From Pseudonocardia nigra (lineage in GTDB: Bacteria > Actinomycetota > Actinomycetes > Mycobacteriales > Pseudonocardiaceae): a stretch of 64,000 bases of DNA. The stretch covers positions 1 through 64,000 of the forward strand of contig NZ_JAHKRK010000013.1 in assembly GCF_019396355.1 (NCBI RefSeq). The letters run 5' to 3'. A model generated the notes under the pieces. That model was not told where the DNA came from. It did no database searches and saw only the letters and a list, made by a program, of their open reading frames with translations. Shown in pieces: positions 8,160-24,223 of this stretch. Both the position numbers and the translations under genes were made by a program. Every line of letters begins with the position of its first letter. Positions within the stretch are counted from its first letter, which is position 1.

Positions 8160-9475
8160 CAGCAGCTCCTGAGGAAGCGATCGAGCACCCGGGTGCCGAA
8201 CTTCAGCGCGTCGACCGGCACCCGCTCGTCGATGCCGTGGAACAGCGAGGCGAAGTCGAGGTCCGGGGGCAGCCGCAGCGGCGCGAAGCCGTAGCAGCGC
8301 ATCCCCAGCTCGGCGAACGACTTGGCGTCGGTGCCCCCGGACAGCATGTAGGGGACGGTGTGCGCGGTCGGGTCCTCCTCGCGCAGCGCGGCGAGCATCG
8401 CGTCGGTGATGTCGGCCTCGAACGGCGTCTCGACGGCGGGCAGGTGGGTGACCCACTCCCGTTCCACGTCCGGCCCGATGAGCTCGTCGACCTCGCGCAG
8501 GAACGCCTCCTCCCGGCCCGGCAGCACCCGGCAGTCGACGACCGCCTCGGCCGAGGACGGGATGACATTCGCCTTGTAGCCGGCCGAGAGCATGGTGGGG
8601 TTCGCCGTGTCGCGCACGGTCGCCCCGATGATCCGCGACAGCGGCCCGAGCTTGCGCAGCGCGCCCTCGAGGTCCTCCTCCGGGAACTCCAGCCCCGTCA
8701 GCTCCCGCATCCGCTCGATGAACGCGCGCACGGTGTCGGTGACCACCATCGGGAACGTGTGGTTGCCCAGCCGCGCCACGGCCTCCGCGACCTTCGTCAC
8801 GGCGTTGTCGTCGTGCAGGAACGACCCGTGCCCGGGACGCCCGCGCGCCCGCAGCCGCATCCAGGCGATCCCCTTCTCGGCGGCCTCGATCAGGTAGACG
8901 CGCTCGTCCTCGCCGACCGTGAGGGAGAACCCGCCGACCTCGCCGACGGCCTCCGTGCAGCCCTCGAAGAGATCCGGCCGGTGCTGCACCAGCCACTGCG
9001 CCCCGTACTTGCCGCCCGCCTCCTCGTCGGCGACGAACGCGAACACGATGTCGCGCGGCGGCACCACCCCGTCGCGCTTGAAGCGGCGGGCGACCGCGAT
9101 CGTCATCGCGACCATGTCCTTCATGTCGACCGCGCCCCGGCCCCACACGTAGCCGTCCTGCACCGCACCCGAGAACGGGTGCACCGACCACTCCGTCGGA
9201 TCGGCCGGCACGACGTCGAGGTGGCCGTGCACGAGCAGCGCACCGCGTTCCGGGTCGGCCCCCTTCAGCCGACAGACCACGTTCTCCCGCCGCGGCGCCC
9301 CCGACTCGACCACCTCGACCTCGTAGCCGACCTCGGAGAGCTTCGCCGCGACGAAGGCCGCGGCCTCCCGCTCGCCCGTCACCGTCTCGGGGTCGCCGGT
9401 GTTGGTGGTGTCGATCCGGATGAGCTCGGAGGCCAGCTCGACGACCTCGTCCTCGGCTGCTTCTACGCGGGTCAC
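8159..9475 (-). CDS. M20/M25/M40 family metallo-hydrolase
   Basis: 438 aa, di-zinc peptidase/deacylase of the ArgE/DapE/carboxypeptidase G2 superfamily. Zinc-site motifs are LLVHGHLDVVP (His, Asp), WGRGAVDMKDM (Asp), VFAFVADEEAGGKYG (catalytic Glu and Glu ligand), plus a His near the C-terminus (SLFHGIDE). Insert domain for dimerisation in the middle. Likely cleaves an N-acyl or peptide bond in the cytoplasm; many actinobacterial members are annotated as dipeptidase or succinyl-diaminopimelate desuccinylase-like without proof. First gene of a two-gene operon with the SDR. Confidence 0.9.
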   Translation of the reverse strand: MTRVEAAEDEVVELASELIRIDTTNTGDPETVTGEREAAAFVAAKLSEVGYEVEVVESGAPRRENVVCRLKGADPERGALLVHGHLDVVPADPTEWSVHPFSGAVQDGYVWGRGAVDMKDMVAMTIAVARRFKRDGVVPPRDIVFAFVADEEAGGKYGAQWLVQHRPDLFEGCTEAVGEVGGFSLTVGEDERVYLIEAAEKGIAWMRLRARGRPGHGSFLHDDNAVTKVAEAVARLGNHTFPMVVTDTVRAFIERMRELTGLEFPEEDLEGALRKLGPLSRIIGATVRDTANPTMLSAGYKANVIPSSAEAVVDCRVLPGREEAFLREVDELIGPDVEREWVTHLPAVETPFEADITDAMLAALREEDPTAHTVPYMLSGGTDAKSFAELGMRCYGFAPLRLPPDLDFASLFHGIDERVPVDALKFGTRVLDRFLRSC

Positions 9476-9547
9476 GCGGGCCTTCCTACCATCACCCGGT
9501 ACCCCGCGCGGCGGCCCGGAAGGCGTCGGCTATCCTCGTTCCAGCAA

Positions 9548-9634
9548 GTCCGAGTGGCGGAATGGCAGACGCGCTAGCTTGAGGTGCTAGTCCCCGTGTA
9601 GGGGGTGGGGGTTCAAGTCCCCCCTCGGACACCA
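9548..9634 (+). tRNA. tRNA-Leu(GAG)
   Basis: 87 nt including an encoded CCA. Acceptor stem GTCCGAG (9548-9554) pairs with CTCGGAC (9624-9630). The anticodon stem CTAGC/GCTAG encloses the loop TTGAGGT, giving anticodon GAG. A long variable arm typical of tRNA-Leu (CCCCGTGTAGGGG) and a T-arm with GTTCAAGT are present. The 3' end serves as the attachment site of the integrated element that follows. Confidence 0.97.
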
Positions 9635-9635
9635 G
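9611..9635 (+). repeat. attL: tRNA-Leu 3' end
   Basis: GTTCAAGTCCCCCC followed by TCGGACACCAG; the T-arm and acceptor 3' strand of the tRNA. The copy at the other end of the island differs at only two positions. Integration keeps the tRNA intact at this side. Confidence 0.85.
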
Positions 9636-9784
9636 TTGTGGTGGAACGTCACCAGCCGTGTGACAGCTCGCCGGGGCTCCCGGATGCGGTCACCGTGGCG
9701 TCCCTGGGCATCAAACCCGATCAGGCGGCACCCGCGCAGAGGTGATCGTGATCGAGACCTACAGCGCGGCACGAGGATCGCTCG

Positions 9785-10282
9785 ATGAGCATCCGCGCCC
9801 ACGAACCGCATCTCGGCACCCATGAGCAGCTGATCGCCGCCGTCCTGCCCGACGTCACCGCCCCGCGGCCGACGCCTCGGCCGGTTTCGCTGCCGTCTCT
9901 GCCCGCACCGGACCTGCCCAGCCTCGACGATCCGGACACCCTCCTCGTCGGCACCGCACGTGTCGATCGTTCCGGTCGCGTCCACGAACGGGCGCTGCTC
10001 CATGCACTGGGTTGGGAGCCGGGCCACGAGCTGGAGCTGGACACGGGCAGCGGCGTGATCGCCGTCACCTCCGTTCCCGGCGGCCGGTACCGCGTCGACG
10101 GCCGAGGAGCGCTGGCCCTACCGGCCGCGGCGCGCCGGATGTGCGGCATCACGATCGGCCCGCCGGTCGTCCTCGTCGCGGCTGCACACGAGCAGATTCT
10201 CCTCGTCCACCCCGCTGCGACCGTGGCTCGGCTGCTGGCCGGGCACTATGCCACGGTGATCGGTACCCGCGATGGCCGCTGA
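9785..10282 (+). CDS. AbrB/MazE/SpoVT-like DNA-binding protein of the island
   Basis: 165 aa. A Pro-rich N-terminal stretch (residues 25-50) precedes a swapped-hairpin-like region: RVDRSGRVHERALLHALGWEPG (about 58-79), then GRGALALPAAARRMCGI (about 103-119). The latter has the look of an AbrB-type element with a conserved Pro and hydrophobic pattern. It overlaps the integrase start by 11 bp, so the two are co-translated. Proteins of this type often precede integrase in actinobacterial elements and may control its expression; that role is inference. Confidence 0.6.
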   Translation: MSIRAHEPHLGTHEQLIAAVLPDVTAPRPTPRPVSLPSLPAPDLPSLDDPDTLLVGTARVDRSGRVHERALLHALGWEPGHELELDTGSGVIAVTSVPGGRYRVDGRGALALPAAARRMCGITIGPPVVLVAAAHEQILLVHPAATVARLLAGHYATVIGTRDGR

Positions 10283-11285
10283 CCCGTCTCGGATCGCGAT
10301 CGCGCGCGATCTCCTGGCCCAGCTCGGGGTCACCCTCGCCGACCTGCGCGACGGCGAGACGCCGGCCGCTGTCGTGCCGACGCTGGCCGACTACCTGCCC
10401 TGCGTTATCGCGGCAGCTGGACCTGGCGCGAACCGTACCTACGGCAGCTACTGGATCAGAATGGCGGCCGTCTGGGGCACCAGGCCGCTGGACCAGATCT
10501 CGGCCAGCGACATCGAGGCCATGCAGCACCAGATGGCCGCGACCGCGCGGTCGCGGCGCAACAGCCGCCACGGCCGGCACGCCGGCGAGCACGTGATCGC
10601 CGCCGCCCGCGCCATCTACAACAGGGCCATCGCCGACGGGCTCATCGAGCGGGGCGCGAGCCCGGCGCACCGCGTCGCCAAGCCGCGCCGACTCCCGAGC
10701 GCCCGTAGGGCCCTGACCGCCCACGAGCTCGACCAGATCAACACCGCCGCCCGCACCAGCGGCAACGACGTCGTCCTCGACGCGTTGCTGCTGCGGCTGC
10801 ACACCGAAACCGCGTGCCGCCGCGGCGGCGCGCTTGCCCTCCGCCTCGCCGACCTCGACACCGACAACTGCCTGATCCAGCTCCACGAGAAAGGCAGCAC
10901 CACCCGGTGGCAACCGGTCAGCCCGGCCCTCGCGGCGAGCCTGGCCGAGCATGCCGCCTGCCGTGGCGCGATCCTGCCCACCGACGCCCTGCTCCGCTAC
11001 CGCGAGGGCCGCGCACTGACCAGCCGCCGCTACGACCACCTCTGGACCCGCCTCGGCCAACAACTCCCCTGGGTCTCCGCACAGGGCATCTCCACCCACT
11101 GGCTCCGCCACACCACCCTGACCTGGGTCGAACGCCACTACGGCTACGGCATCGCCCGCGCATATGCCGGCCACACCGACAGCACCGGCGCGGCGACGAC
11201 CACCTATATCAAGGCCGACCTCCAAGCCGTCGCCACCGCCTTGTCGGCCATGACCGGCCAACCGCACGCACTGACACGGCCATGA
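10272..11285 (+). CDS. int: tyrosine recombinase / site-specific integrase
   Basis: 337 aa. Catalytic residues of the tyrosine recombinase family can be read: Arg183/184 in TACRRGGAL, His276 and Arg279 in THWLRHT, His301 in YAGHTD and nucleophile Tyr312 in TTTYIKA. The N-terminal SAM-like core-binding domain runs to about residue 145. It should catalyse recombination between the tRNA-Leu site and the circular form. It overlaps the AbrB-like gene and is followed by the toxin-antitoxin pair. No excisionase gene is recognised nearby. Confidence 0.92.
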   Translation: MAADPSRIAIARDLLAQLGVTLADLRDGETPAAVVPTLADYLPCVIAAAGPGANRTYGSYWIRMAAVWGTRPLDQISASDIEAMQHQMAATARSRRNSRHGRHAGEHVIAAARAIYNRAIADGLIERGASPAHRVAKPRRLPSARRALTAHELDQINTAARTSGNDVVLDALLLRLHTETACRRGGALALRLADLDTDNCLIQLHEKGSTTRWQPVSPALAASLAEHAACRGAILPTDALLRYREGRALTSRRYDHLWTRLGQQLPWVSAQGISTHWLRHTTLTWVERHYGYGIARAYAGHTDSTGAATTTYIKADLQAVATALSAMTGQPHALTRP

Positions 11286-11346
11286 ACAGAGGTCACGGTC
11301 ATTCCGCAACCGGGGAACGAGCGGGCGGAAGAGATCCTGCCGGGGT

Positions 11347-11365
11347 GTATACCTACCGCTATACT
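11347..11365 (+). promoter_or_regulatory. promoter/operator of toxin-antitoxin pair
   Basis: GTATAC (11347-11352) and TATACT (11360-11365) place two TATAC boxes 12 bp apart. TATACT fits a -10 element and ends 6 nt before the GTG of the toxin, which implies a leaderless mRNA. The repeated box is a plausible binding site for the Xre-type antitoxin, giving the usual autorepression. Confidence 0.5.
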
Positions 11366-11371
11366 GCCGGT

Positions 11372-11734
11372 GTGGACGTAGGTGGGTGGCAGATCTACAT
11401 CGCCAACGAGGTCCGCGACTGGCTCGATCGCCTCGACGGCGCCACCCACACGCGGGTGGTCCACGCCATCGACACCCTCGCCGAGGCCGGGCCCGGCCTC
11501 GGCCGTCCACTCGTCGACACGATCCACGGCTCCTCGATCGCCAACCTCAAAGAGCTCAGACCCGGCACCGTGCGGATCTTGTTCGCGTTCGACCCCTGGC
11601 GCTCGAGCATCCTCCTCGTCGCCGGGGACAAGGCGGGCCACTGGAACACCTGGTACCGCGACGCGATACCGCTGGCCGAGCAGCGGTACGAGCGCTACCT
11701 CAAGGAACGCACTCAGGAGGAGGAACAGCGATGA
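11372..11734 (+). CDS. higB: RelE/HigB-family toxin (Gp49-like)
   Basis: 120 aa from GTG at 11372. The fold signature is visible: WLDRLDGATHTRVVHAIDTL helix pair, LKELRPGTVRILFAFDP strand core with Arg residues, then AGDKAGHWNTWYRDAIPLAE, typical of Gp49-like HigB toxins. These are ribosome-dependent mRNA interferases. Unusually for classic type II systems, but normally for HigBA, the toxin gene comes first. Its stop overlaps the antitoxin ATG by 4 bp. It probably stabilises the island. Confidence 0.85.
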   Translation: MDVGGWQIYIANEVRDWLDRLDGATHTRVVHAIDTLAEAGPGLGRPLVDTIHGSSIANLKELRPGTVRILFAFDPWRSSILLVAGDKAGHWNTWYRDAIPLAEQRYERYLKERTQEEEQR

Positions 11735-12048
11735 ACAACTTCGTGAGCTGGAACGACATCCGCACCGAGCACGTCGAACGGGCTGGCGGCGAGGCCGCCG
11801 TCGAAGCCGGCAAGCGCGAGCTGATCGCCGAAGTGATCGGTCATCGCCTCGCCGACATCCGTCGGGCGCGCAGCATGACCCAGCAGCAGGTCGCCGACAA
11901 GATGGGTGTCACCAAGGGCCGTGTGTCCCAGATCGAACAGGGCAAGGTCTCCGGACACGACGTCCTCGCTCGCTACGCCGCCGCGCTCGGCGGACGACTG
12001 CACCAGGCGATCTACTTCGACGACGGCGATATCACAGCCATCGCATGA
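11731..12048 (+). CDS. higA: Xre-family antitoxin
   Basis: 105 aa. The helix-turn-helix lies at about residues 35-90, with MTQQQVADKMGVTKGRVSQIEQGK as its recognition region (read as consecutive helices), and a C-terminal segment follows. It neutralises the toxin encoded just upstream and represses the operon. The ATG lies inside the toxin's stop (ATGA) with an AGGAGGAGG ribosome site in the toxin's 3' end, a strong site that should favour excess antitoxin. Confidence 0.88.
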   Translation: MNNFVSWNDIRTEHVERAGGEAAVEAGKRELIAEVIGHRLADIRRARSMTQQQVADKMGVTKGRVSQIEQGKVSGHDVLARYAAALGGRLHQAIYFDDGDITAIA

Positions 12049-12214
12049 ACCCGGCATGAACCCGAGGTCACCGAAGCTGCGAGTTCGCACTGCCTGCCAC
12101 CCCGGTTCGACGCCGTCCGGGTGGGTCATCAACGCGGGGTGGCGGTCGCAGGAAAACGGACGAGGTCCCGCAGGCAAGCCAGATCTCCGCCCCGGCGCCC
12201 TTCGCACGCGGCGA

Positions 12215-13075
12215 CTACACGAAGTCTGTTGCAGAGGCGTCGTCGATCTCGGCAGGAAGGGCTGGCCGAGGCGCGCGCAGGTAACCGATCCCAGCCCAGA
12301 CAAGCCAATCGGCTGACTCAGGATCGAGCGACCATGGTCGGTACATCAGGACTCGCCTCAAACCAGTCCGATCCATCACCTGGGCCGGTTCCGGCGGCAA
12401 CCGCGCCCGCCGATCGCCGTCTGCCCCCCAATGCGCATGAACCGGATCATCGAGCACCCACAGCAACGTGTCGACGAGCTGCGGCCACGTGGGTGTGCCC
12501 CACCAGTGCGGACACGCCAGTCCACCATGTGCGGAAGCCCGCCACGACGCGTAGCGGCCGCCCCGGTGCTCCGCCGTGGCGGCGAACAACCCGAGCGTGG
12601 CGTCCACGTGGTCGGAGAACTCGTCGAGGCCGGCACCGGCCAGCTCGGCGAGCGTGGTGCCGATCGGGAGTCGACGTCCCGGATTCACCAGCCAACGCCA
12701 GATCCGCACAGCGAGTCGATCCGTCGCCTCGACATCGAGATCATCGAGCGTCGCGGTTGGCGCGTCGGGCGTGAGGCCGGTCTCGGCGCGCCAGCGCCTC
12801 ATGATCTCCCGGATGCGCCACGTGGTGTGCGCATTGATGCGCAACATCGCCCCGTCGGTCAGCGGACCGTCCGCGGCGTGCCAGTCCTCGACCGGGCTGT
12901 TGCGCCACGCGCTGTTGACGATCCCGACCGCGGCGAGGTCCAGCACCTGCCCGAGGTGACGAGGATCGATTCCGGCTTGGTGGCGAAGCACTCTCTCCAC
13001 CAAGACCGCCTCCTCCTGGCGCGTGAACTCATCACCATCCGAGTCAGAGTCCCTGTCCTCCACGTCGGCGAGCAT
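12215..13075 (-). CDS. hypothetical island protein
   Basis: 286 aa, start chosen at the ATG MLADVEDRDSDSDGDEF because the longer open frame upstream overlaps the next gene. I do not recognise the family. The N-terminus is acidic. A helical middle (VERVLRHQAGIDPRHLGQVLD; TWRIREIMRRWRAETGL) and a C-terminus rich in Trp and Pro (CPHWWGTPTWPQLVDTLLWVL; WSLDPESADWLVWAGIGYL) suggest a folded, soluble protein. No membrane segments. It is the only clear minus-strand gene on the island, divergent from the pRiA4b-type gene. The 166 bp between the antitoxin stop and this gene's stop hold nothing recognised. Confidence 0.6.
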   Translation of the reverse strand: MLADVEDRDSDSDGDEFTRQEEAVLVERVLRHQAGIDPRHLGQVLDLAAVGIVNSAWRNSPVEDWHAADGPLTDGAMLRINAHTTWRIREIMRRWRAETGLTPDAPTATLDDLDVEATDRLAVRIWRWLVNPGRRLPIGTTLAELAGAGLDEFSDHVDATLGLFAATAEHRGGRYASWRASAHGGLACPHWWGTPTWPQLVDTLLWVLDDPVHAHWGADGDRRARLPPEPAQVMDRTGLRRVLMYRPWSLDPESADWLVWAGIGYLRAPRPALPAEIDDASATDFV

Positions 13076-13315
13076 GCCAGCACGTATCGACCTCCAGATC
13101 GACGAGCAACCCGATCGCAACGGCGCGACTGTCCGCAGGACTCGCCGAGCGCATCGCGGGCTGCGGCGAGCTCGCAACGGCAGCATCGTGCGGACGTTGC
13201 GGGTCCAGCTCGCCGAGACGCGGTCGGGACGTGATCGAGCGCATCGACATGTATCGACGAGTCGTGGATCTTCCCCACGGTGCCGCCCCAGGATTCGCTT
13301 ACGGGGGCGGCTAAC

Positions 13316-14953
13316 GTGCGCCCCGTGGTTTCTCTCCCCGCGTCCGCCATCGAGGTCACCGCCGCGGCACGCGAGTGCGCCGCGTTCCGCGCGGCGCATC
13401 GTCTGGCCATCTGGGTGGGCGAGGGTCGCCGCGTCACGCCACGACACGTCCTTCGTCCAGCGGACGTGTCGGCTGCCGCCCGGGCCTTGGGTATCGCGGC
13501 CCCTGCGCGGGTGCGCACGGCAGGCGATGTCGTCGCCCTGCATCGCCCGTGGCGGATCGCCATGACCGTCGGATTTCTGGACATCGTCGACAGCCACGCC
13601 CGGCCCGGCCCCGCCCTCGTCAGCTGGCCCGACGCGGACGACGAGACCGTCCGTGGGATGTGGCTGGCCGCGCTGCCCGCAGCGCTCGCCGCGACGGCCC
13701 CCGACGTGGACGAAGCCGAAGCGACCATCTGCGCTCGTGTGCTCCTCACCAAGCTCGCCGCGGACCCGGAAGCCGCGCCTGACGAGTTGCGCAGGTTCGG
13801 CCGCGAGGCCGTCGCCGAGGAGCACTCGGAGGCGGTGTTCCGGTTCTTCGCCGGCTGGTACCACCTGACCAGCCCCATCCCCAAAACCCTGGACTGCCTG
13901 GCCGAGCTCGGTGCCGTGCAGCTCGGCCACGCCGGAGCGGCGCTGACCCCGCTGGGCCGCTGGGGGCTGGACGAGCTGCTGGCCCGGGCGCCCCGCCCGA
14001 TCAGCAGCGAGCTCACGGTAGGCGAGCTGATCGCGCGGCTCGCGGAGGTCGAGCCGGACGAGCAGTGGCGAGCGGCACAGCCCTGGCTCGCGGCCCGGGA
14101 TCCGCTGGCGGCCGCGCACGACCTTCTCGCCGCCGCCGCCACCGCACCTGCGGACCAGCGAGTCGCCGCGGTAGAGCTCGTCGACGCCCTCGGGCCGCCC
14201 GCCGACCCAGCCTGGGCGGCTGCGGCCACGGACCAGACCCTCGGCCCGCACGTCCGGACCCGGCACCGCTCGGTGCCCAACGAGCCGGACGCGGCCTGGC
14301 TCGCCGTCGAGTACGCGGCCGCCGCCCTGCGACGCGAAGGCCCTGACGAAGCGCACTCCTGGCTTGACGAGTGCCTGCCGGGCGACGGCATCGACTCCCG
14401 GCTACGGGTCGTCGAGCGCACCGGCCACCCCGCGGCCTCCGAACTGGCTGCCGGCATCACCGCGTTCCTCGCCACCGGCGTCACCCCGACGAGCACACGA
14501 ACCGTCCAGCTCAAGATCTCCCTGGACCGCATGCGGCCTCCCGTATGGCGCCGCGTACTGCTGCCCGCGGCCGCCCCCCTCAGCCTGCTGCACCGGGTGA
14601 TCCAGATCGTCATGAACTGGGACGATGACCACCTGCATGCGTTCACCGTCGGCCGCAACCGCTACGGCGATCCCTCCTACACGCCAGACCTCGGCGACGA
14701 GGAACGGCTGCGGCTGAGTGCCGCTTTCGCCGCCACCGACACGATCACCTATCGCTACGACTTCGGGGACTGCTGGGACCACACCGTGCGGTGCGAGACA
14801 ATCCTCGATCCCCCCGCGGGCGCGGCAGTTCCCGTCTGCGTCACCGGCCGGGGCGACGCTCCCGTCGAGGACTGGATCGGCGGCGCCGCCTGCGTCGCGT
14901 TCGACCTCGAGGGCATCAATCGACGGCTGGCCCGGTACGGGGCGGACCGTTGA
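13316..14953 (+). CDS. plasmid pRiA4b ORF-3 family protein
   Basis: About 545 aa if started at GTG 13316 (an upstream GTG at 13280 is also possible). The C-terminal ~170 residues carry the pRiA4b ORF-3 domain: TVQLKISLDRMRPPVWRRVL, MNWDDDHLHAFTVG and YRYDFGDCWDHTV, with the typical His-x-His and YDFGDxWxH signatures. The N-terminal ~370 residues are alpha-helical and not recognised. The domain occurs on plasmids and mobile elements and its biochemical role is unknown. The stop overlaps the next gene's start by one base (TGATG), so the two proteins are made together. Confidence 0.75.
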   Translation: MRPVVSLPASAIEVTAAARECAAFRAAHRLAIWVGEGRRVTPRHVLRPADVSAAARALGIAAPARVRTAGDVVALHRPWRIAMTVGFLDIVDSHARPGPALVSWPDADDETVRGMWLAALPAALAATAPDVDEAEATICARVLLTKLAADPEAAPDELRRFGREAVAEEHSEAVFRFFAGWYHLTSPIPKTLDCLAELGAVQLGHAGAALTPLGRWGLDELLARAPRPISSELTVGELIARLAEVEPDEQWRAAQPWLAARDPLAAAHDLLAAAATAPADQRVAAVELVDALGPPADPAWAAAATDQTLGPHVRTRHRSVPNEPDAAWLAVEYAAAALRREGPDEAHSWLDECLPGDGIDSRLRVVERTGHPAASELAAGITAFLATGVTPTSTRTVQLKISLDRMRPPVWRRVLLPAAAPLSLLHRVIQIVMNWDDDHLHAFTVGRNRYGDPSYTPDLGDEERLRLSAAFAATDTITYRYDFGDCWDHTVRCETILDPPAGAAVPVCVTGRGDAPVEDWIGGAACVAFDLEGINRRLARYGADR

Positions 14954-15741
14954 TGGACGATGACGTCGCCGCCGACGACCTCGCCGAGCTCCGGGCCGCC
15001 GCATCCGTCGCGGACCTGCACCGACTCCTGGTCACGCGCCAAGTGAGCGGACGCAGCACCCGGCACCAGGAGGCGGTCGAACTGTTCGTGCTCCATCACC
15101 GGGAGGATCCGGTCGGCGCCGTCGACACCGCCGTGCTGCTGTGCACCGAATGGCGGTGGAACCGGTGCACGGCGAAACTCATCGCCGACATCTGCGCCGC
15201 CGGCATCCTCGACGACGACGCGCTCGACGCGCTCGCGGACCGGCTGCTGTGGGCGGATCAACCGTCGGTCCGCCATCCCCTGTCCTGGCTCGGGCTGGGA
15301 TGGATGTCGATCGACCCGGCAAGCGGCCACGTCGTCGGCCGCGGCACCGACCGCGACCGGCTCATCGACCATCAGCGCTCACCCGCCGAGCCGCCGTTGC
15401 TGCGCTGGGCCGCGGGACACCTGCTATGCCGCAAGCGGACCACCGTCGACCGGCTGCGCAGCCGGGCCGCGTCACTCGACTCCCGGCGCGGCCCAGCCGT
15501 TCTCGCGGGCGCCCTCGACGCGGCGGACTCGCTGACCCACCCCGACCTCCAGGCCGCAATCGACCTCGGCCTGACAAGCGGGCGCGCACAGGTCCGTAAG
15601 CTGGCGCTGCACGTCATGGCCGACCGGATCGACCCCGCCGAAGCCGTCCGCCTGGCCCGGATCGATCCGGACGCCTCAATCCGCCGCTGGGCGCCGATTC
15701 TGGAGACCGAGAGCAGCCTCACGCCCGCGACGTTGTTCTGA
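14953..15741 (+). CDS. hypothetical island protein, HEAT-like helical repeats
   Basis: 262 aa. The protein is built of paired helices: DDALDALADRLLWADQPSVRHPL, DLQAAIDLGLTSGRAQVRKLAL and AEAVRLARIDPDASIRRWAPIL (each read as consecutive helices), a pattern like HEAT repeats. No catalytic motif seen. Translationally coupled to the pRiA4b ORF-3-type gene (TGATG overlap), which suggests the two form one functional unit. A small hairpin follows its stop. Confidence 0.65.
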   Translation: MDDDVAADDLAELRAAASVADLHRLLVTRQVSGRSTRHQEAVELFVLHHREDPVGAVDTAVLLCTEWRWNRCTAKLIADICAAGILDDDALDALADRLLWADQPSVRHPLSWLGLGWMSIDPASGHVVGRGTDRDRLIDHQRSPAEPPLLRWAAGHLLCRKRTTVDRLRSRAASLDSRRGPAVLAGALDAADSLTHPDLQAAIDLGLTSGRAQVRKLALHVMADRIDPAEAVRLARIDPDASIRRWAPILETESSLTPATLF

Positions 15742-15748
15742 CTGCGCC

Positions 15749-15765
15749 CCGCCTGAACGAGGCGG
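15749..15765 (+). terminator. short hairpin after the HEAT-like gene
   Basis: CCGCCT-gaacg-AGGCGG, 8 nt after the stop codon. The stem is only 6 bp and no T-run follows, so this is at most a weak intrinsic terminator, as is common in high-GC actinobacteria. Confidence 0.4.
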
Positions 15766-15930
15766 CCGCAACGTCAACGGGTGTTGACCGGAGCACAAAC
15801 CCGCACCGGGATCCCGGCCCGGGTCGCGGCCACGCCGATCACGACCTGGAGCCGGTCGTCGCGGGAATCCTTCGGCTTGCCACTACGGTCTGGCTGCGGA
15901 AAGAACAGGGACGAGCGCGAGTGAGGACAC

Positions 15931-18234
15931 ATGGCAAAGACGGCGCGGGAACGGCTGGCGCGGCTACTCGACGACTCCGAGCCAGCCGGGTCGTTCGCTG
16001 CTCAGCTGCTGGCGCCCGCGCATTTGCTCCAGCTCGAGGTGTCTGGCGTCGGACCAGTGCGCCTTCCGGTCCGCGCACCCCTAGCGAAGAAGCTGATCGC
16101 AGTGGCGCGGTCAGCGATGTTCGGGCGAGGGGAACAGACGCTGTCCGACACCAACGTTCGCGACACGTGGGAACTCACCCCGGATCAGATCACGCTCGGC
16201 GGACCCGACTGGACAGCGCTGATGAATCACGCGCTGGAACACTTTCGCGACGAGCTCGGACTCCCGCAGACGTCACGCCTGCGGGCCGAGCCGCACTCGA
16301 TGCTGGTATACGGCAAGGGACAGTTCTTTCTCCCCCACCAGGACTCGGAGAAAGACGACGCTATGGTCGGCACGCTAGTGGTGTCACTACCTTCGGCGCA
16401 CACCGGTGGGGAACTGGTCATCGACCACGCCGGGGAGAGCACCGCCTACCGAGCGTCGAAGGAGGAGTTGACCTTCGTCGCGTTCTACGCCGACTGTCGT
16501 CACCAGGTCACACCGGTCAGATCCGGGTACCGGGTGACGCTCACGTTCAACCTGCTCGCCAGCCCCGCGACCCCGGCTCCGGAGGCGAGCCCCGCAACCG
16601 AGCTGGCGCACTGCCTGAGCGAACACTTCATCACCACGCCGGCCACCACGCGATACGGAACCCGCGACGTCGGCCTGCCGAACCGGCTGGTCTTCCTCCT
16701 CGACCACGAGTACACCCAGCGAGGGCTGAACTGGCGTCGGCTCAAGGGCGGCGACGTGGAGCGGGCCAAGCTGGTGCGCGCCGCGGCGGAGCAAGCCGGG
16801 TGTGAGACGGTGCTCGCACTCGCCCAGGTGAAGGAGACCTGGGACGCCCTGCCATCCGACAGCGACCCGTGGGACGGCTACTCCTACTACGAGGACGAGG
16901 ACGAGGACGAGGACGACGGTCACAGCAGCCCGAATGAGGACCCCAGCGACTTTCAGCTCAATGAGTTGATCGACGACGAGATCACCCTCGGCTGGTGGAC
17001 CAGCCCGGACGGCACCGGCGGCGAGCCGATCTCGCTGCACGTCCCCGACTACGAGGTGTGCGCCACCACTCCGAGCGTGGGCCTGGCCCCCTACCAGTCC
17101 GAGTACGAGGGCTACATGGGCAACTACGGCAACACGCTGGATCGGTGGTACCGGCGAGCCGCGGTTGTCGTATGGCCGCAGGACAAGGCGTTCGCGGCGC
17201 GTGCCGAGGCCGGATCGCAGTGGGCTCTGCACGAGCTGCGTGACCGCATCGAGGCCGGAGACCTGGAGGGCGCACGTGCCGCGGCAGAGTCGCTCACGCC
17301 GTTCTGGAAACGGATAGGAACGCAGGCGGGACTGCTCGGTGCGGCACTGGATGTGGCGGCGAGCCTCGACGTCGCCGGGACGGCGGCGATGCTGCTGGAA
17401 CCATTCCGGGTGGAAACGGTCACGCAGGAGCATGCGGGCGGGTTGGCGGCGACGGCCGGCCGGTACGGCGAGGACTGGACGCGAAGCGTCATCGACGGGT
17501 GGTTCGGGCCGACGAACCACTTCGGAACCGACCTGTCCGAGTGGGTCGGCAACAGCCTGCCTGGGCTGTGCGAGACGCTGCGCACCACCGGGAGGCCGGA
17601 GGTGGCACAGCTACTGGCCGCCAGAGCCTGGCGCTGGATGGGCGGCCGACTCCGCCTCTGGACTACCACCGCGCGAAGCGAGGTCCGCCAGCCACAGCTG
17701 GAGATGATGAGCTCGCCGTTGGTGGGGCTGCTGGAGGCGGCCGACGACAAGCTATGCGACGAGATCACCGGAGCACTGCGCGAGTGCGGGGACAACGTAC
17801 TGGAGTGCCTGATGCCTGCGCTGCGTCTTGCGGACGCGCGCCAGGCGGCGGGGCTCGACACGGTCGCGCGGGACTGCGTGGAGCGGCTCGGCACGATCAT
17901 CGCGCGGCCGCTGCGCGACGAAGACGACTGGTCGATCGAATGGACCGGCTGCGGGTGCGGCCTCTGTGACACGTTGGGGACGTTTCTCGTCTCCCGATCA
18001 CAGCGGATCTTCGAGTGGCCGCTGGCGACAGACGGACGCCGGCACGTGCACACCCAGATCGACTCCGGAGGGCTGCCGGTGCGACACCAGACCCGGCGGC
18101 AGGGGCGGCCATACACGCTGACGCTGACGAAAACCAACGAGCTGTTCACACGCGCCACGAACGCGCGGCACAAGGCTGTGACCGACCTGGCGTGGCTGAC
18201 GTCGACGCGAGGTGCCCCATCGACGCGAACGTAA
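15931..18234 (+). CDS. 2OG-Fe(II) oxygenase with long C-terminal domain
   Basis: 767 aa. Residues about 100-210 form a prolyl-4-hydroxylase-like 2-oxoglutarate/Fe(II) dioxygenase core: HxD at His136/Asp138 (FFLPHQDSE), distal His191 (CRHQVTPVRSGYRVTL) and the 2OG-binding Arg just after. A polyacidic tract (EDEDEDEDDGH) lies near residue 315. The following ~450 residues are helical, contain a CGCGLCDTLGTFL segment and are not recognised. Such cores hydroxylate protein side chains or other substrates; the substrate here is unknown. It is by far the largest cargo gene of the island and starts 190 bp after the HEAT-like gene, probably from its own promoter. Confidence 0.78.
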   Translation: MAKTARERLARLLDDSEPAGSFAAQLLAPAHLLQLEVSGVGPVRLPVRAPLAKKLIAVARSAMFGRGEQTLSDTNVRDTWELTPDQITLGGPDWTALMNHALEHFRDELGLPQTSRLRAEPHSMLVYGKGQFFLPHQDSEKDDAMVGTLVVSLPSAHTGGELVIDHAGESTAYRASKEELTFVAFYADCRHQVTPVRSGYRVTLTFNLLASPATPAPEASPATELAHCLSEHFITTPATTRYGTRDVGLPNRLVFLLDHEYTQRGLNWRRLKGGDVERAKLVRAAAEQAGCETVLALAQVKETWDALPSDSDPWDGYSYYEDEDEDEDDGHSSPNEDPSDFQLNELIDDEITLGWWTSPDGTGGEPISLHVPDYEVCATTPSVGLAPYQSEYEGYMGNYGNTLDRWYRRAAVVVWPQDKAFAARAEAGSQWALHELRDRIEAGDLEGARAAAESLTPFWKRIGTQAGLLGAALDVAASLDVAGTAAMLLEPFRVETVTQEHAGGLAATAGRYGEDWTRSVIDGWFGPTNHFGTDLSEWVGNSLPGLCETLRTTGRPEVAQLLAARAWRWMGGRLRLWTTTARSEVRQPQLEMMSSPLVGLLEAADDKLCDEITGALRECGDNVLECLMPALRLADARQAAGLDTVARDCVERLGTIIARPLRDEDDWSIEWTGCGCGLCDTLGTFLVSRSQRIFEWPLATDGRRHVHTQIDSGGLPVRHQTRRQGRPYTLTLTKTNELFTRATNARHKAVTDLAWLTSTRGAPSTRT

Positions 18235-18288
18235 GGTACGCCAGGTAGCCTGCGCTCGGGCAGTCCGCCTTGTACCCGACGGACAGGA

Positions 18289-18447
18289 TCACCGCGACGG
18301 TCCGGTGGCGGCGAAGATCAGCCCGATCAGCCCGTTCGCGACGTAGTGGAGCTCAACGTCACGCAGCGGGCGACGTGGCCCGGTGAGCCGTCGCGGTGGA
18401 CGCTCGAAGCGCGCCTCGGACTGCACGCGATCGGTGGTGGTCGTCAT
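18289..18447 (-). CDS. possible small island protein
   Basis: 52 aa from ATG (MTTTTDRVQSEARFERPPRR), with a hydrophobic C-terminal stretch VANGLIGLIFAATG. No family recognised and no strong ribosome site judged. It lies between the oxygenase gene and the right attachment site, where small excisionase-type genes sometimes sit, but it does not look like one. Otherwise 18,235-18,573 shows nothing recognisable. Confidence 0.25.
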   Translation of the reverse strand: MTTTTDRVQSEARFERPPRRLTGPRRPLRDVELHYVANGLIGLIFAATGPSR

Positions 18448-18573
18448 GCGGCACGTCCCCCGCTCGGGCGCGACTACCTCGAGCCGTGGATCGAGCAACG
18501 TTGAGACCCGGGCGTTGATCGAGGTGCTGCTGCCAGCGTCCTGCATAGCGTTTACCGACCCCGGCTACAATGG

Positions 18574-18610
18574 GCCACGTGAACACCTGCCACGTGCAGG
18601 TATGCCACGT
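18574..18610 (+). repeat. three GCCACGT direct repeats at 15-bp period beside attR
   Basis: GCCACGT at 18574-18580, 18589-18595 and 18604-18610, each exactly 15 bp apart, ending 6 bp before the right attachment repeat. They look like arm-type binding sites for integrase or an excision factor. Confidence 0.6.
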
Positions 18611-18616
18611 TCTCGT

Positions 18617-18641
18617 GTTCGATTCCCCCCTCGGACACCAG
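18617..18641 (+). repeat. attR: duplicated tRNA-Leu 3' end
   Basis: Copy of the tRNA 3' end, GTTCGATTCCCCCC plus TCGGACACCAG. 18 bp exact and 25 bp with two mismatches to 9611-9635. No tRNA body precedes it, so it is the target-site copy left by integration. Confidence 0.85.
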
Positions 18642-19184
18642 ATCAAGTCTCTGATCAGCAGGTTCTCGCAGCTTCTGCTCGCGTTTGATCTGTATGCGCT
18701 GGGCACGGACGTGGGGGTGCACGTCCCACTGGGACGTGCCCGTGCCGCGGGGCGCACGAGTCCGGAACGGTTGCTTCTCGGAGTGGTTCGGTCGCGCGCG
18801 AGTTGTTCCATCGTCTCGGCCGCTTCGGCGGGATCCTCGTGCTCCCAGATCCTGACTACGAGCCAGTCCCGACTGCAACCTGCGCCGCAGTCCTCACACC
18901 GCCCGCCAGGCGCTAGAATCAACCGGAGAACCGACCCCGGACGCCGCTCGTCTGGCGACGGCTGGCCCTGTGCGGTGGGTGCCGCGGCCGTCTACCGGTG
19001 GTCGATCAGTGGCCATGCCTTCCCGCCGTATGCGGGCGGGCTGTCCGGCCCGCGGATCCGTGGGTCCGCTCGCGTCTCGGAGGAGCCACCTCGGCCTCTC
19101 CCCGCGACGCCCATCGCCCGACCGCAGCACTGTACGCGGCACGGCTGCCACGGCGGCCGTGCCGGGCACGAGGAGGAGGAGTCA
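18642..19184. other. intergenic stretch, no convincing gene
   Basis: About 540 bp of original chromosome to the right of the island. It holds several GC-rich inverted repeats (for example CCGCC-gtatgcg-GGCGG near 19,024 and a GCACGG/CCGTGC pair near 19,139-19,162) and a TAGAAT box near 18,915. These may be a leader region for the helicase gene. A minus-strand open frame starting with TTG has a Cys-rich N-terminus but no recognised family, and I do not call it. Confidence 0.4.
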
Positions 19185-21323
19185 GTGGCTCGACGAGGCC
19201 GGCCCCAGACCAGGGCTCGCCGTACCGCCCCGCGCGACCGTCGTCACGGCCGCCGCCGCGACGACGTCAACTCGGTGCTCGCCCGCGCCGTCCGGGAGGT
19301 CGAGGCAGCCCTCCGGAGCGGTCGGGTCACGCCCGCGACGCGCACGAAGTTCCAGGCCCTCGCACTGCTGCTGCGCGATGAGCGCGCCCGGGTCCGGGCG
19401 GAGGAGAACAGCAGCGACACGCACCGGGCTGAGCAGCTCAAGCGCCTCGACGGCATCGCGACGATCCTCGCGAAGAGCGCCGTGCGTGATTCCGAACTCC
19501 TGGCGCTCCTCGCCGAGGACGCCGTCGTCTCCGACGAGGCCCGGTCGCTCAAGCGGGACATGCTGAGGACCGCGGGCATCGAGTCGGGCGCCGACGAGCT
19601 CCCGCCGGTGGAGCCCCCGGCCGCCGCCACCGAGGACCGGGTGGTGCCGCGGTCGGTCGTCTCGCGGCGACTGGCCAACCCCTTCCTCGCCCCCGACGTC
19701 TCCGCCGTCCGGCCGAGCGCACCCCGTCCGACGCGGTTGGCCACTTGGGAGCTGATCGGCCCGCTGCTCAGCTCGTTCGAGCGCGCCGGAGGCGGAGCCG
19801 CGGCGTGCATGGCCCTCCCCGCGCCGACCTCCCGGTACACGCCGCGCGGCCTGGAGCTGATGCCGCACCAGGCCCGGCTGGTCGCCGCGGCCGCGGCCGG
19901 CCACCGGACCTTCCTGCTCGCCGACGAGCCGGGGCTGGGCAAGACGGCCCAGGCGCTGCTCGCCGCGGAGGCGGCGAACGCCTACCCGCTGCTCGTCGTC
20001 GTGCCGAACGTCGTCAAGACGAACTGGGCGCGCGAGGCCGGGATGTGGACGCCCCACCGCTCGGCCACCGTGATCCACGGCAACGGTGACTCGATCGACG
20101 GATTCGCCGACATCGTCGTCGTCAACTACGAGGTGCTCGACCGCCACGTGGGATGGCTCGGCGGCTTCGGCCTGCGCGGCATGGTCGTCGACGAGGCGCA
20201 CTTCATCAAGAACAAGTCCTCCCAACGCTCGCGGCACGTCCTGGCGCTCTCCGAGCGAATCCGGTCCTTCACCGCGCGCCCGCTGCTGATGGCCCTCACC
20301 GGCACCCCGCTGATCAACGACATCGAGGACTTCCGGGCGATCTGGCAGTTCCTCGGCTGGATCGACGAGACGAAGCCGCTCGCCGAGCTGATGAACGCGC
20401 TCGACGAGACCGGCCTGACACCCGCCGACCCGGGGTTCTACGCCGCGGCCCGCCAATGCGTCGTCGATCTCGGCATCGTCCGTCGCCGCAAGGTCGACGT
20501 GGCCGCCGACATCCCGGCGTGCCGCATCGCCGACCTCCCCGTCGAGCTGGACGGGCCGGCCGGTCGGTCGATCCGAGCGGCCGAGCGCGAACTCGCTCGC
20601 CGCATGGTGTCGCGGTACGAGGAGGCACTGGCCGGCCGCCGGTCCGGTGCCGTCGTCGAGGGCGTCGACCACGACCTCGTGCGCCAGGTGGCCAGGTGGG
20701 AGCAGAAGGACGCGACCACCTCGACGACCGGCGAGAACGTCTTCAGCATGATGCGGCGCATCGGTCGGGCGAAGGCCGGCCTCGCCGCCGACTACGCGGT
20801 CCAGCTCGCGCGCAGCGCGGGCAAGGTGGTCTTCTTCGCCAAGCACGTCGACGTGATGGACGTCGCCGAGGAGACGTTCGCCGAGCAGGGGGTCCGCTTC
20901 TCGTCGATCCGCGGCGACCAGACGCCCACGTCGAGGCAGCGGAACATCGACGCCTTCACAGGCGACCCCGACGTGGCCATCGCGGTCTGCTCGCTGACCG
21001 CGGCCGGCGTGGGCCTCAACCTCCAGGTCGCCTCCGACCTCGTGCTCGCCGAGCTCTCCTGGACCGCCGCAGAGCAGACCCAGGCGATCGACCGCAGCCA
21101 CCGCATCGGCCAGGCGCAGCCCGTCACCGCGTGGCGCATCATCGCCGCGCAGACGATCGACGCCCGGATCGCCGAACTGATCGACAGCAAGGCCGGCCTC
21201 GCCGCCCAAGCGCTCGACGGCTCGGAGGAGGAGGTCGGGTCGTCGGCCGACGTGCAACACGAGGCGCTCGTCGCGTTGCTGACCGACGCGCTGTCGGCGG
21301 CCCCGACGCGCCTCGTGAGCTGA
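19185..21323 (+). CDS. SNF2-family DNA-dependent ATPase/helicase
   Basis: 712 aa from GTG at 19185, preceded by the strong ribosome site AGGAGGAGGAG; the open frame upstream is not coding. Helicase motifs in order: LADEPGLGKTAQAL (I), VVPNVVKTNW (Ia), VVDEAHFIKN (II), LLMALTGTPLIN (III), then AAGVGLNLQVASDLVLAEL (V) and QAIDRSHRIGQ (VI). The N-terminus is basic (ARRGRPQTRARRTAP). Arrangement is that of SMARCAL1/HARP-like SNF2 proteins that anneal or remodel DNA; the cellular role is not known. It stands alone with no methylase, nuclease or other defence gene beside it. Confidence 0.9.
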   Translation: MARRGRPQTRARRTAPRDRRHGRRRDDVNSVLARAVREVEAALRSGRVTPATRTKFQALALLLRDERARVRAEENSSDTHRAEQLKRLDGIATILAKSAVRDSELLALLAEDAVVSDEARSLKRDMLRTAGIESGADELPPVEPPAAATEDRVVPRSVVSRRLANPFLAPDVSAVRPSAPRPTRLATWELIGPLLSSFERAGGGAAACMALPAPTSRYTPRGLELMPHQARLVAAAAAGHRTFLLADEPGLGKTAQALLAAEAANAYPLLVVVPNVVKTNWAREAGMWTPHRSATVIHGNGDSIDGFADIVVVNYEVLDRHVGWLGGFGLRGMVVDEAHFIKNKSSQRSRHVLALSERIRSFTARPLLMALTGTPLINDIEDFRAIWQFLGWIDETKPLAELMNALDETGLTPADPGFYAAARQCVVDLGIVRRRKVDVAADIPACRIADLPVELDGPAGRSIRAAERELARRMVSRYEEALAGRRSGAVVEGVDHDLVRQVARWEQKDATTSTTGENVFSMMRRIGRAKAGLAADYAVQLARSAGKVVFFAKHVDVMDVAEETFAEQGVRFSSIRGDQTPTSRQRNIDAFTGDPDVAIAVCSLTAAGVGLNLQVASDLVLAELSWTAAEQTQAIDRSHRIGQAQPVTAWRIIAAQTIDARIAELIDSKAGLAAQALDGSEEEVGSSADVQHEALVALLTDALSAAPTRLVS

Positions 21324-21479
21324 CGGGGGGCGCGCCGCGTCTCGTGCGGTGGCGGGTAAGGACGGACCCGATTCGCCCGGCGCTGCCCGGTTGCATTCCG
21401 TGTCCTCAGGAAAGGTCGGGAACGGCAGCGGTCGGCCGCGGCGACGGCACCGCTGTCGGACCAGGCGCACATGGCCCAG

Positions 21480-21854
21480 TCAGCCGGTGCGGCGGGAGCG
21501 GGCCAGACCCAACCCACCGAGGTTCATGCCGATCAGCCCCACCACCAGGGCCACGATCGCCCCGGCTCGCCCGTTGCCGGTACCGAAGCCACCGGTGGAG
21601 CCGGCCAGATGCAGCACACTGAGGACCATGCCGATCAGCCCCACCACCAGGGCCACGATGGCCCCGGCTCGCCCGTTGCCGGTGCCGATACGACCGGCGG
21701 AGCGGGCCAGAGCCAGCCCACCGATGACCACGCTGATCAGCCCCACCACGGCGGCCACGACGGCGCCGAGTCGCCCGGAGCCGGTGCCGATACCACCGGC
21801 GGCGACGGAGAGCTCCGCGGCCGCCGGTGCGACAAGCAAATGACGGACGGACAT
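21480..21854 (-). CDS. DUF6223 family membrane protein with triplicated repeat
   Basis: 124 aa, ATG with an AAAGGAT ribosome site 7 nt upstream. The N-terminus resembles a signal anchor. Three tandem units of about 39 residues follow, each containing [22 protein letters not shown] and then a short arm; each unit encodes one hydrophobic helix. At DNA level the second and third units are nearly identical, which points to recent internal duplication. The [19 protein letters not shown] pattern is that of DUF6223. It is divergent from the two-component genes, whose sensor may control it. The plus-strand open frame over the same bases is a His-rich shadow and is not called. Confidence 0.75.
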   Translation of the reverse strand: MSVRHLLVAPAAAELSVAAGGIGTGSGRLGAVVAAVVGLISVVIGGLALARSAGRIGTGNGRAGAIVALVVGLIGMVLSVLHLAGSTGGFGTGNGRAGAIVALVVGLIGMNLGGLGLARSRRTG

Positions 21855-22246
21855 TGAGGATCCTTTCGGTCGAATGACGGGTAGGCGCCCGGGAAACCGG
21901 CCGACCACCACGGCTTGGGCGAACACCCCGTGCAGGTGCACGGTGACCACCGCGCGCAGTGCCCACCGCATCGGCCGGACCACCAGATCCGGCACCTCTG
22001 ATCAGCTCCCCTCCTGGCGACGGCTTTCTGGGAGCGATCGTGGTTGCCGGGGTGGTGCCCGCGCGTCGGGCAACGGAGGTGTCTTCGGGCTGAGGCCCGC
22101 GGCGTACGGTCGGCCGCCGGTAGTAGACGCTCTCAACCCGTGCGGTAGTGCCGAGGCACCACACCCGGTGGATGCGCACCCCCGGCGGCACACGCAACAT
22201 GGGACCGGGCGGCGTGCCCGGTCGAGCCCGGATCGAGGGCGGGGGA
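21855..22246. other. divergent intergenic region
   Basis: About 390 bp between the DUF6223 gene and the sensor kinase gene, which are transcribed away from each other. It must hold both promoters. No clear gene, array or strong inverted repeat is seen. Confidence 0.4.
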
Positions 22247-23461: not shown

Positions 23462-23542
23462 TGTCCACGTGCGCCCACCCGACCCGCTCCTGAGCCACCA
23501 GTGCGCCACGGCCGCGACCGGCGAGACTCAGGGTGCTGTGCG

Positions 23543-24223
23543 GTGACCGAGCCCATCCGCGTGCTCATCGCCGACGACGAAGCCCTCGTCCGGGGCGGCT
23601 TCCGGGTACTCGTCGACAATGAACCCGGCATGATCGTGGTCGGCGAAGCCGGCGACGGAGCCACCGCGGTGGACCTGGCCCGGCAAACCCGCCCCGACGT
23701 CGTGCTCATGGACATCAGGATGCCCGGCGTCGACGGACTGAGCGCCACCCACCAGATCGCCGCCGACCCCGACCTCACCGACGTCCACGTACTCATCCTC
23801 ACCACCTTCGACCACGACGAATACGTCATCGAAGCACTCGGTGCCGGCGCCGCCGGCTTCCTGATCAAAAACACCGAACCCCGCCAGCTGCTGCACGGCA
23901 TCCGCATCGTCACCGGCGGGGAGGCCCTCCTGTCCCCTGGGCTGACCCGACGACTCATCGCCCGACTGACCAGCCGAACCACAACTCCACGACTCGACAC
24001 CGACGTCCTGGCCCAACTCACCACCCGGGAGAAGCAGATCGTCGGACTCGTCGCCCACGGCCTGAGCAACACCGACATCGCCACCGCCCTCACCATCAGC
24101 CACGCCACCGCCAAGACCCACGTCAGCCGCGCCATGACCAAACTCGGCGCCCACGACCGCGCACAGCTGGTCGTCCTGGCCTACCAACACCGCCTCGTCG
24201 AACCACCCGACCCCACCCCGTGA
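23543..24223 (+). CDS. NarL/FixJ-family response regulator
   Basis: 226 aa from GTG at 23543. Receiver domain: acidic pocket DDE at residues 11-13, phospho-acceptor Asp57 in VVLMDIRMPG, and Lys in FLIKNTEP. C-terminal LuxR-type HTH: LTTREKQIVGLVAHGLSNTD and ATAKTHVSRAMTKLGA. Partner of the sensor kinase upstream; a likely target is the divergent DUF6223 gene or the pair itself. Convergent with the ROK gene, 32 bp between ends. Confidence 0.93.
   Translation: MTEPIRVLIADDEALVRGGFRVLVDNEPGMIVVGEAGDGATAVDLARQTRPDVVLMDIRMPGVDGLSATHQIAADPDLTDVHVLILTTFDHDEYVIEALGAGAAGFLIKNTEPRQLLHGIRIVTGGEALLSPGLTRRLIARLTSRTTTPRLDTDVLAQLTTREKQIVGLVAHGLSNTDIATALTISHATAKTHVSRAMTKLGAHDRAQLVVLAYQHRLVEPPDPTP

Follow-up and report, generated by a model that had tools for sequence, protein, structure and literature searches.

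A compact integrative island at a tRNA-Leu(GAG) gene of Pseudonocardia nigra and its candidate protective cargo

We analysed a 64-kb stretch of Pseudonocardia nigra DNA (contig NZ_JAHKRK010000013.1, positions 1 to 64,000; hereafter the window), in which the sole tRNA gene, tRNA-Leu (GAG), is followed by an island bounded by two copies of the tRNA 3′ end. As the original prediction held, this end is repeated exactly over 18 bp, the second copy starting 9,006 bp further downstream, and a tyrosine integrase lies just inside the repeat, at the tRNA-proximal end of the island, 638 bp past the tRNA gene. The gene order between the repeats is an AbrB/MazE-like gene, the integrase, a toxin, an antitoxin, a gene for a 286-aa protein on the opposite strand, and genes for a 542-aa protein with a pRiA4b ORF-3 domain, a 262-aa protein and a 767-aa 2-oxoglutarate (2OG)-Fe(II) oxygenase, all of them open frames (Table 1). 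The predicted toxin–antitoxin pair was borne out by PF05973 and helix-turn-helix (HTH) families, and its two genes overlap at ATGA (11731–11734). The earlier inventory left out the AbrB/MazE-like gene, whose matches to PF04014 (E 0.007) and TIGR01439 (E 0.03) are both weak and under the curated cut-offs.

Table 1 Features of the island and its target tRNA gene (window coordinates).
Feature	Position	Strand	Basis or remark
tRNA-Leu (GAG), integration target	9548..9634	+	ARAGORN
attL core copy, 18 bp, tRNA 3′ end	9618..9635	+	exact repeat of 18624–18641
AbrB/MazE-like protein, 165 aa	9785..10282	+	overlaps integrase start; phrog_31174 E 9e-10
Tyrosine integrase, 337 aa	10272..11285	+	PF00589 E 2e-13
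Gp49/HigB-like toxin, 120 aa	11372..11734	+	PF05973 E 2.4e-19
HTH antitoxin, 105 aa	11731..12048	+	HTH_31 E 8.7e-10, HTH_3 E 7e-9
286-aa protein, family unknown	12215..13075	-	homologues in G060, G456, G528, G479
542-aa protein: winged-helix region, helical repeats, C-terminal pRiA4b ORF-3 domain	13325..14953	+	PF07929 E 1.6e-38
262-aa protein (predicted 'HEAT-like')	14953..15741	+	start overlaps stop of the pRiA4b gene
767-aa 2OG-Fe(II) oxygenase	15931..18234	+	2OG-FeII_Oxy_3, PF13640 E 6e-11
attR core copy	18624..18641	+	left arm ATTCCCCCC, as in right-hand copies of G606 and G599

In a longer form the repeat agrees at 23 of 25 positions (9611–9635 and 18617–18641). Its 17-mer occurs in the 64 kb as two exact copies, nowhere with one or two mismatches and at one unrelated place with three; shuffled sequence gave 0.43 matches at ≤3 mismatches, and none of 100 shuffles gave three matches. 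Third-position GC is 0.855 in the island genes, 0.941 in the seven genes on the left and 0.947 in the ten genes beyond 25.5 kb, with an intermediate value (0.903) in the three genes at 18.9–24.2 kb. The genome (assembly of 8.49 Mb in 601 contigs; completeness 96.3%, contamination 5.6%) is one of 62 from the genus, all of which have some tRNA-Leu match, at high identity (E below 1e-28) in 59 and weaker only in three. Searches with Pfam, PADLOC, NCBIfam and PHROGs listed no relaxase, transfer, replication or phage structural family for the island genes, cross-hits of the antitoxin HTH aside, in agreement with the prediction that transfer and phage structural genes are lacking. Neither a replication initiator nor an FtsK-like transfer gene appeared among the families found with Pfam, NCBIfam and PHROGs; structural and packaging PHROGs were also missing, a collection that novel genes of such kind may escape. 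The island genes include no relaxase or terminase, and helper signals (oriT, cos/pac) were not searched for. Because of the 18-bp repeat, the integrase inside it, a third-position GC lower than in both flanks and the existence of three sister elements, we conclude that this is a tRNA-bounded integrative island.

The integrase belongs to a family found at E≤1e-40 in 88 of 249 genomes of the host family and in 26 of 46 genera, own included; a search of 50,697 phage records brought up nothing related to it at E≤1e-5. Reading the 29 best matches other than the window's own with 1.5-kb flanks revealed an AbrB-like relative beside 27 of them (on the upstream side in 26 of these) and tRNA-Leu(GAG) beside 16. 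A survey of attachment (att) sites covered 51 integrase loci in 52 stretches, one of which (G084) holds a fragment only; many loci had been picked for a nearby tRNA. An att-like core was present within 1.6 kb upstream of the integrase in 23 of the 51 loci, 17 with a tRNA and six without, the latter as expected for inner members of tandem arrays. In 20 of these 23 the core and the integrase match are 608–660 nt apart. A right-hand pattern match in locus L237 was set aside, its left neighbours differing, and right-only matches (L226, L227, L270, L283 and L290) were not counted. The AbrB-like plus integrase core is distinct and widespread; the integrative island itself is of a known kind.

Four elements are closed by a second core copy: that of the window (9.0 kb) and its sisters in genomes G060 (9.65 kb), G606 (10.7 kb) and G599 (7.6 kb), which have closing repeats of 15–16 bp and integrases 78–81% identical to the window's. 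The right-hand copies read ATTCCCCCC in the window, G606 and G599 and ACTCCCCCC in G060, and the tRNAs read AGTCCCCCC; a right-copy arm that differs from the tRNA arm is as expected if the arm derives from the attP of the element. In G606 the right copy is followed by a second AbrB-like and integrase match. A serine recombinase frame, recognized by eye, crosses the right att copy of the G599 element (L225, 8364–9500 in reverse-complement coordinates). Two related integrases stand face to face directly past tRNA-Leu(GAG) in L165, L178 and L182, and in L235, the same place as L178, the second integrase also has an AbrB-like match, which suggests paired or inverted elements. Second copies of the tRNA 3′ end lie further downstream at about 14.7 kb in G024 and G065 and at about 52, 114, 119 and 138 kb in G021, G071, G033 and G004, respectively. 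tRNA-Leu(GAG) looks like a hotspot for islands of widely differing size.

The sisters share the integrase and the site and differ in cargo that, judged by its family matches, appears mostly defence-like. G599 carries a protein with PHP and SMC-type ATPase parts that matches the PADLOC model Ppl (E 1e-48). In G606 the cargo includes a DUF5677 protein with a match to DitA (E 5e-17), another protein whose resolvase match stays below threshold and what by eye is a transposase. G060 holds a homologue of the 286-aa protein, a protein with HNH and ResIII helicase domains (best PADLOC match PbeA, E 1.6e-14), a HIRAN protein and an NB-ARC/TPR protein. The proposal that the island is a defence candidate gained from these sisters, which carry defence-like genes; for the present cargo we infer a protective role from its position only.

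We favour, with roughly even confidence, the view that the island is a compact, non-autonomous, site-specific integrative element with a toxin–antitoxin stabilizer and exchangeable, probably host-protective cargo. Its anatomy suggests that the integrase would recombine an attP site and the tRNA-Leu(GAG) 3′ end in such a way that the tRNA stays intact, and the near-constant pairing suggests that the AbrB-like protein probably controls integration, excision or integrase expression. The toxin–antitoxin pair, to go by its HigB/HTH-type family, would stabilize the element; a pair 83–85% identical lies about 1.6–2.3 kb past the same tRNA in G021. Since no transfer genes were found, movement is probably by a helper (a conjugative element or phage) or by transformation. 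The cargo may come from two sources, a pair of pRiA4b-type and HEAT-like genes on the one hand and a large, self-sufficient protein hydroxylase that travels in tRNA-linked islands on the other, and would most likely protect the host against phages or rival mobile DNA.

The oxygenase, which has a large helical part, stands out as the most interesting of the uncharacterized cargo. Residues H136, D138, H191 and R201 stay the same throughout an alignment of 45 sequences (the window's and 44 from 79 other loci); from knowledge of the family we take H136, D138 and H191 to be the iron ligands and R201 to bind 2OG. A structural model built from the 45 sequences (predicted local distance difference test (pLDDT) score 86.8, predicted template modelling score 0.69) divides into a catalytic domain (to about residue 212), a second beta-rich part (to about 416), a helical stretch ending near 660 and, at the C terminus, an alpha/beta part, with borders read from the listed elements. 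VIA-align matched the catalytic domain to PiuC (9qn4_A; Z 14.9, root-mean-square deviation (rmsd) 2.7, 157 aligned residues), to a bacterial prolyl 4-hydroxylase (P4H; 4j25_E; Z 13.7, rmsd 3.6, 162 aligned) and to a P4H solved with EF-Tu (Z 12.9, rmsd 5.0, 177 aligned). These comparisons scarcely probe the model past residue 285, and our fold assignment is confined to the catalytic domain. On this model the protein is a P4H/PKHD-type 2OG-Fe(II) oxygenase with an intact HxD...H plus Arg motif and a predicted double-stranded beta-helix fold. It would hydroxylate a protein target recognized by its modelled solenoid.

The oxygenase is found in only five of 397 genomes of the order at E≤1e-20, own included, and in at least 79 further loci kept from a named genome collection, mostly of Actinomycetota. 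Carriers include G405, of the same family, and Saccharopolyspora spinosa NRRL 18395; close relatives (84–86% identity) occur in a metagenome-assembled genome (MAG) of Actinophytocola and in Kibdelosporangium philippinense, and a partial one (85%) in a Pseudonocardia MAG (L072). The 35 same-genus genomes searched gave no strong match and one weak match of 113 residues (G018, E 5.8e-4). Such a patchy distribution speaks for lateral transfer. Full-length relatives occur on Streptomyces plasmids, and half-length relatives, covering about the first half (32–36% identity over 49–59% of the length), on proteobacterial plasmids of Bradyrhizobium, Microvirga, Acidiphilium and Thiodictyon. Phage records held no oxygenase match, and viral contigs gave eight short 2OG-domain matches only; a phage origin was dropped, as both the integrase and the oxygenase lack matches in phage records.

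A tRNA was present in 19 of the 79 oxygenase loci (26 tRNAs in 1.35 Mb) compared with five of 60 control stretches (seven tRNAs in 0.98 Mb; 40 stretches of 20 kb and 20 of 9 kb), the controls being from one order only and the oxygenase loci from several. With the tRNA of L136 left out, 18 of 25 tRNAs, five of which are one cluster (L073), have the oxygenase on their 3′ side and seven have it on their 5′ side. In L101, L102, L110, L123 and L130 it lies 108 to 3,987 bp off the 3′ side of tRNA-Leu(GAG) itself. Three loci hold the oxygenase nearly alone inside a tRNA-bounded mini-island: L110 (tRNA-Leu GAG, 16-bp repeat, 5.2 kb, 8475–13740), accompanied by eye by a serine recombinase and a YefM/YoeB-type pair; L124 (tRNA-Ala CGC, 3.8 kb, 21-bp repeat that is tRNA in its first bases only), with a RelE/ParE-type gene by eye; and L079 (tRNA-Ala TGC, 24-bp repeat, 4.2 kb), with a Uma2 gene by eye. 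L110 shares its tRNA-Leu(GAG) repeat core with the window, and no integrase related to the window's lies inside it. A Gp49/HTH pair like that of the window lies near the oxygenase in L109 and L133.

Several observations weigh against an exchangeable element with protective cargo. Of the 51 integrase loci, 28 show no upstream core with the pattern used, six of them despite a tRNA, and 47 are not closed by a second core within the stretch read. We looked for the SNF2-type helicase gene that follows position 18641 next to the tRNA in 19 stretches from the same genus (20 kb in 17 of them, 10.4 kb and 3.1 kb in the other two); none contains a match to it, and none offers a clean empty site. One of the 19 (G084) carries pRiA4b and oxygenase genes downstream of the same tRNA (82% and 86% identity, the latter cut by the contig end) with no HEAT-like match between them; both genes sit past a first att copy and the integrase there is a fragment. 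The repeated tRNA end in L069, L087 and L118 bounds a stretch that leaves the oxygenase outside. Ppl is the sole strong model match among the sister cargo, and for G060 the evidence consists of domains. No cargo protein of the island fits a specific PADLOC system: the oxygenase matches generic 2OG models only, and the remaining PADLOC matches of island proteins are to HTH models and, over part of the toxin, to NsnC (E 2.7e-7).

Nor was defence enrichment shown beside the oxygenase, where PADLOC families at E≤1e-15 numbered 56 among 100 neighbours and 75 among 100 random control genes, counts of models rather than genes, with Cas1 and Cas3 genes in the control. The neighbours came from 577 called proteins of the 79 loci, of which 332 lay within 3.5 kb and had 100–1200 aa; removal of 12 loci as near-duplicates by eye left 272, the nearest 150 were listed and 100 used, one near the top (L128) being omitted and at least one (L093) being itself a piece of an oxygenase. 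The control genes were drawn from 138 called in 20 arbitrary 9-kb stretches. When all 577 were clustered, transporters and dehydrogenases came out on top by eye. Titles and abstract openings of the literature on oxygenases in phage defence, pRiA4b ORF-3, tRNA-linked, defence and integrative elements, tycheposons and AbrB–integrase pairs at tRNA-Leu contained nothing on this system.

The same element could carry the oxygenase as stress or metabolic cargo, a protein hydroxylase dependent on oxygen and 2OG (acting, for example, on a translation factor or on a protein of metal uptake) that is favoured by selection in certain habitats and unrelated to defence, which we regard as a real possibility, if a rather unlikely one. 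The closest solved folds are compatible with such a role, namely PiuC, bacterial P4H (also solved with EF-Tu) and PHD2, as are the plasmid-borne relatives, full length in Streptomyces and about half length in Bradyrhizobium, Microvirga and others, and neighbours among which neither a conserved partner nor defence enrichment emerged. The patchy distribution (5/397) and the tRNA islands with toxin–antitoxin-like company, however, better suit mobile protective cargo. On that protective side we put forward, as a speculative and decidedly doubtful extension, that the oxygenase founds a class of stand-alone mobile immune effectors of prolyl-hydroxylase type, which would use oxygen and 2OG to modify a phage or host protein held by the solenoid and would be spread by tRNA-linked mini-islands with toxin–antitoxin genes.

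That the island is instead the decaying rest of a larger element, an integrative conjugative element or prophage stripped of its transfer or virion genes, with cargo of no selected function, seems improbable. Other islands at this tRNA may be large, to judge from the second att-like copies 52–138 kb off in G021, G071, G033 and G004, and the G084 integrase is indeed a fragment; but the genes of the present island are open frames, three sisters with the same core are similarly compact, and the integrase found no relative in the phage records at the threshold given above.

Still less probable, in our estimate by a long way from likely, is that the four cargo genes (for the 286-aa, pRiA4b, 262-aa and oxygenase proteins) form one new multi-gene system. 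The original prediction had suggested searching for them as a conserved set, and we rejected a four-gene module on the co-occurrence counts, because partners were rare or absent in the 79 other oxygenase loci (flanks of up to 10 kb on each side, often shortened by contig ends). Both parts of the pRiA4b protein occurred in two loci (L070 and L073) and partial matches in three (L074, L083 and L119); the 286-aa protein had a 71-residue match in one (L093), and the 262-aa protein was found in the flanks of none. No conserved oxygenase partner emerged from clustering either, where the pRiA4b family reached four of 79 loci, with the C-terminal domain only in L083 and L119. Sub-pairs do recur: the pRiA4b and oxygenase genes in G084, L070 and L073, and the pRiA4b and HEAT-like genes in G196, G237 (in pieces) and, found from the pRiA4b side, G469. 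In the window itself the latter two overlap at TGATG (14951–14955), which favours a joint system and upholds the predicted coupling of the two genes; the 'HEAT-like' label found no Pfam family at E≤1. The HEAT-like gene is present in seven of 298 genomes of the order, own included, with a pRiA4b-domain match adjoining in two of the other six. Against a joint system, pRiA4b fusions are far commoner than the oxygenase (28 of 249 family genomes at E≤1e-30, own included), and the 286-aa gene keeps other company. It occurs in four of 249 family genomes at E≤1e-10, own included, and its homologue adjoins an integrase in G060 and a piece of one in G528, with none in the flanks of G456 and G479; in G060 the other three cargo genes had no match in the 20 kb searched. 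The 286-aa protein has no Pfam, NCBIfam or PADLOC match; we accept its frame as a gene because of the homologues in these four genomes, though a coding-score caller skipped it. Finally, a chance origin of the direct repeat, for which its length of just 18 bp might speak, can be dismissed with near certainty given the shuffles, none of which gave three matches at ≤3 mismatches, and the anatomy shared by the sisters.

The 542-aa protein was modelled with AlphaFold2 from 19 sequences (pLDDT 87.2). Its pRiA4b domain (residues 393–518; PF07929 score above the curated cut-off) aligned with MM3350 (2i1s; Z 20.8, rmsd 1.7, 142 aligned) and, as residues 390–527, with chain b of the SNAPc complex (Z 8.8, rmsd 2.8, 126 aligned), which we take to be the SNAPC3 subunit that touches DNA. 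Residues 117–221 aligned with a PadR-family winged helix (8ioi_B; Z 9.8, rmsd 2.2, 78 aligned). The modelled winged-helix and pRiA4b folds suggest that the protein may bind nucleic acid; we know of no established function of the pRiA4b ORF-3 family. Relatives of the protein were found by tblastn in 2673 of 72,556 plasmid records, with the pRiA4b end covered among the matches listed.

Outside the island, window positions 18642–24223 hold the SNF2-type helicase gene followed by a pair of histidine kinase and LuxR-type response regulator genes, perhaps another foreign segment stacked on the same tRNA. We dropped the idea that the chromosome resumes at 42.5 kb, where a gene has a relative beside the tRNA in G026, on recognizing that gene as a major facilitator superfamily (MFS) transporter. 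The left flank includes a Fic/DOC family protein gene (3898–5085, − strand), and a Gig2-like protein (PF07350, E 1e-133) is encoded at 25526–26788 (+ strand).

For the element with exchangeable cargo, the AbrB-like and integrase pair beside tRNA-Leu(GAG) constitutes a defined, short and testable vehicle, whose closed elements hold different cargo at one site. The cargo between the att copies of such elements offers a simple route to candidate protective genes in actinobacteria. Were the oxygenase protective, protein hydroxylation would be an unexpected anti-phage chemistry.

The oxygenase shares its catalytic fold and the HxD...H plus Arg motif with P4H, PHD2 and PiuC, whose chains have about 180–260 residues, whereas it has 767 and additional beta-rich, helical and C-terminal parts. 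Likewise, the 542-aa protein has the same C-terminal domain as MM3350, a pRiA4b ORF-3 protein, and adds winged-helix and helical-repeat regions. Among mobile elements, tycheposons are tyrosine recombinase elements at tRNA genes with exchangeable cargo, described from Prochlorococcus. In comparison with actinomycete integrative and conjugative elements (AICEs), no replication initiator or FtsK-like family was found in the island; in comparison with satellites like phage-inducible chromosomal islands (PICIs), it is without structural or packaging PHROGs. According to PMC11389934, anti-phage systems are encoded by many phage satellites, and hitchers, non-autonomous elements that target tRNA genes, are rich in defence systems. 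Hitchers and the island have in common an integrase, att repeats of a tRNA 3′ end, small size and no transfer genes found; unlike them, the island has a dedicated AbrB-like and integrase pair and tRNA-Leu(GAG) as its site.

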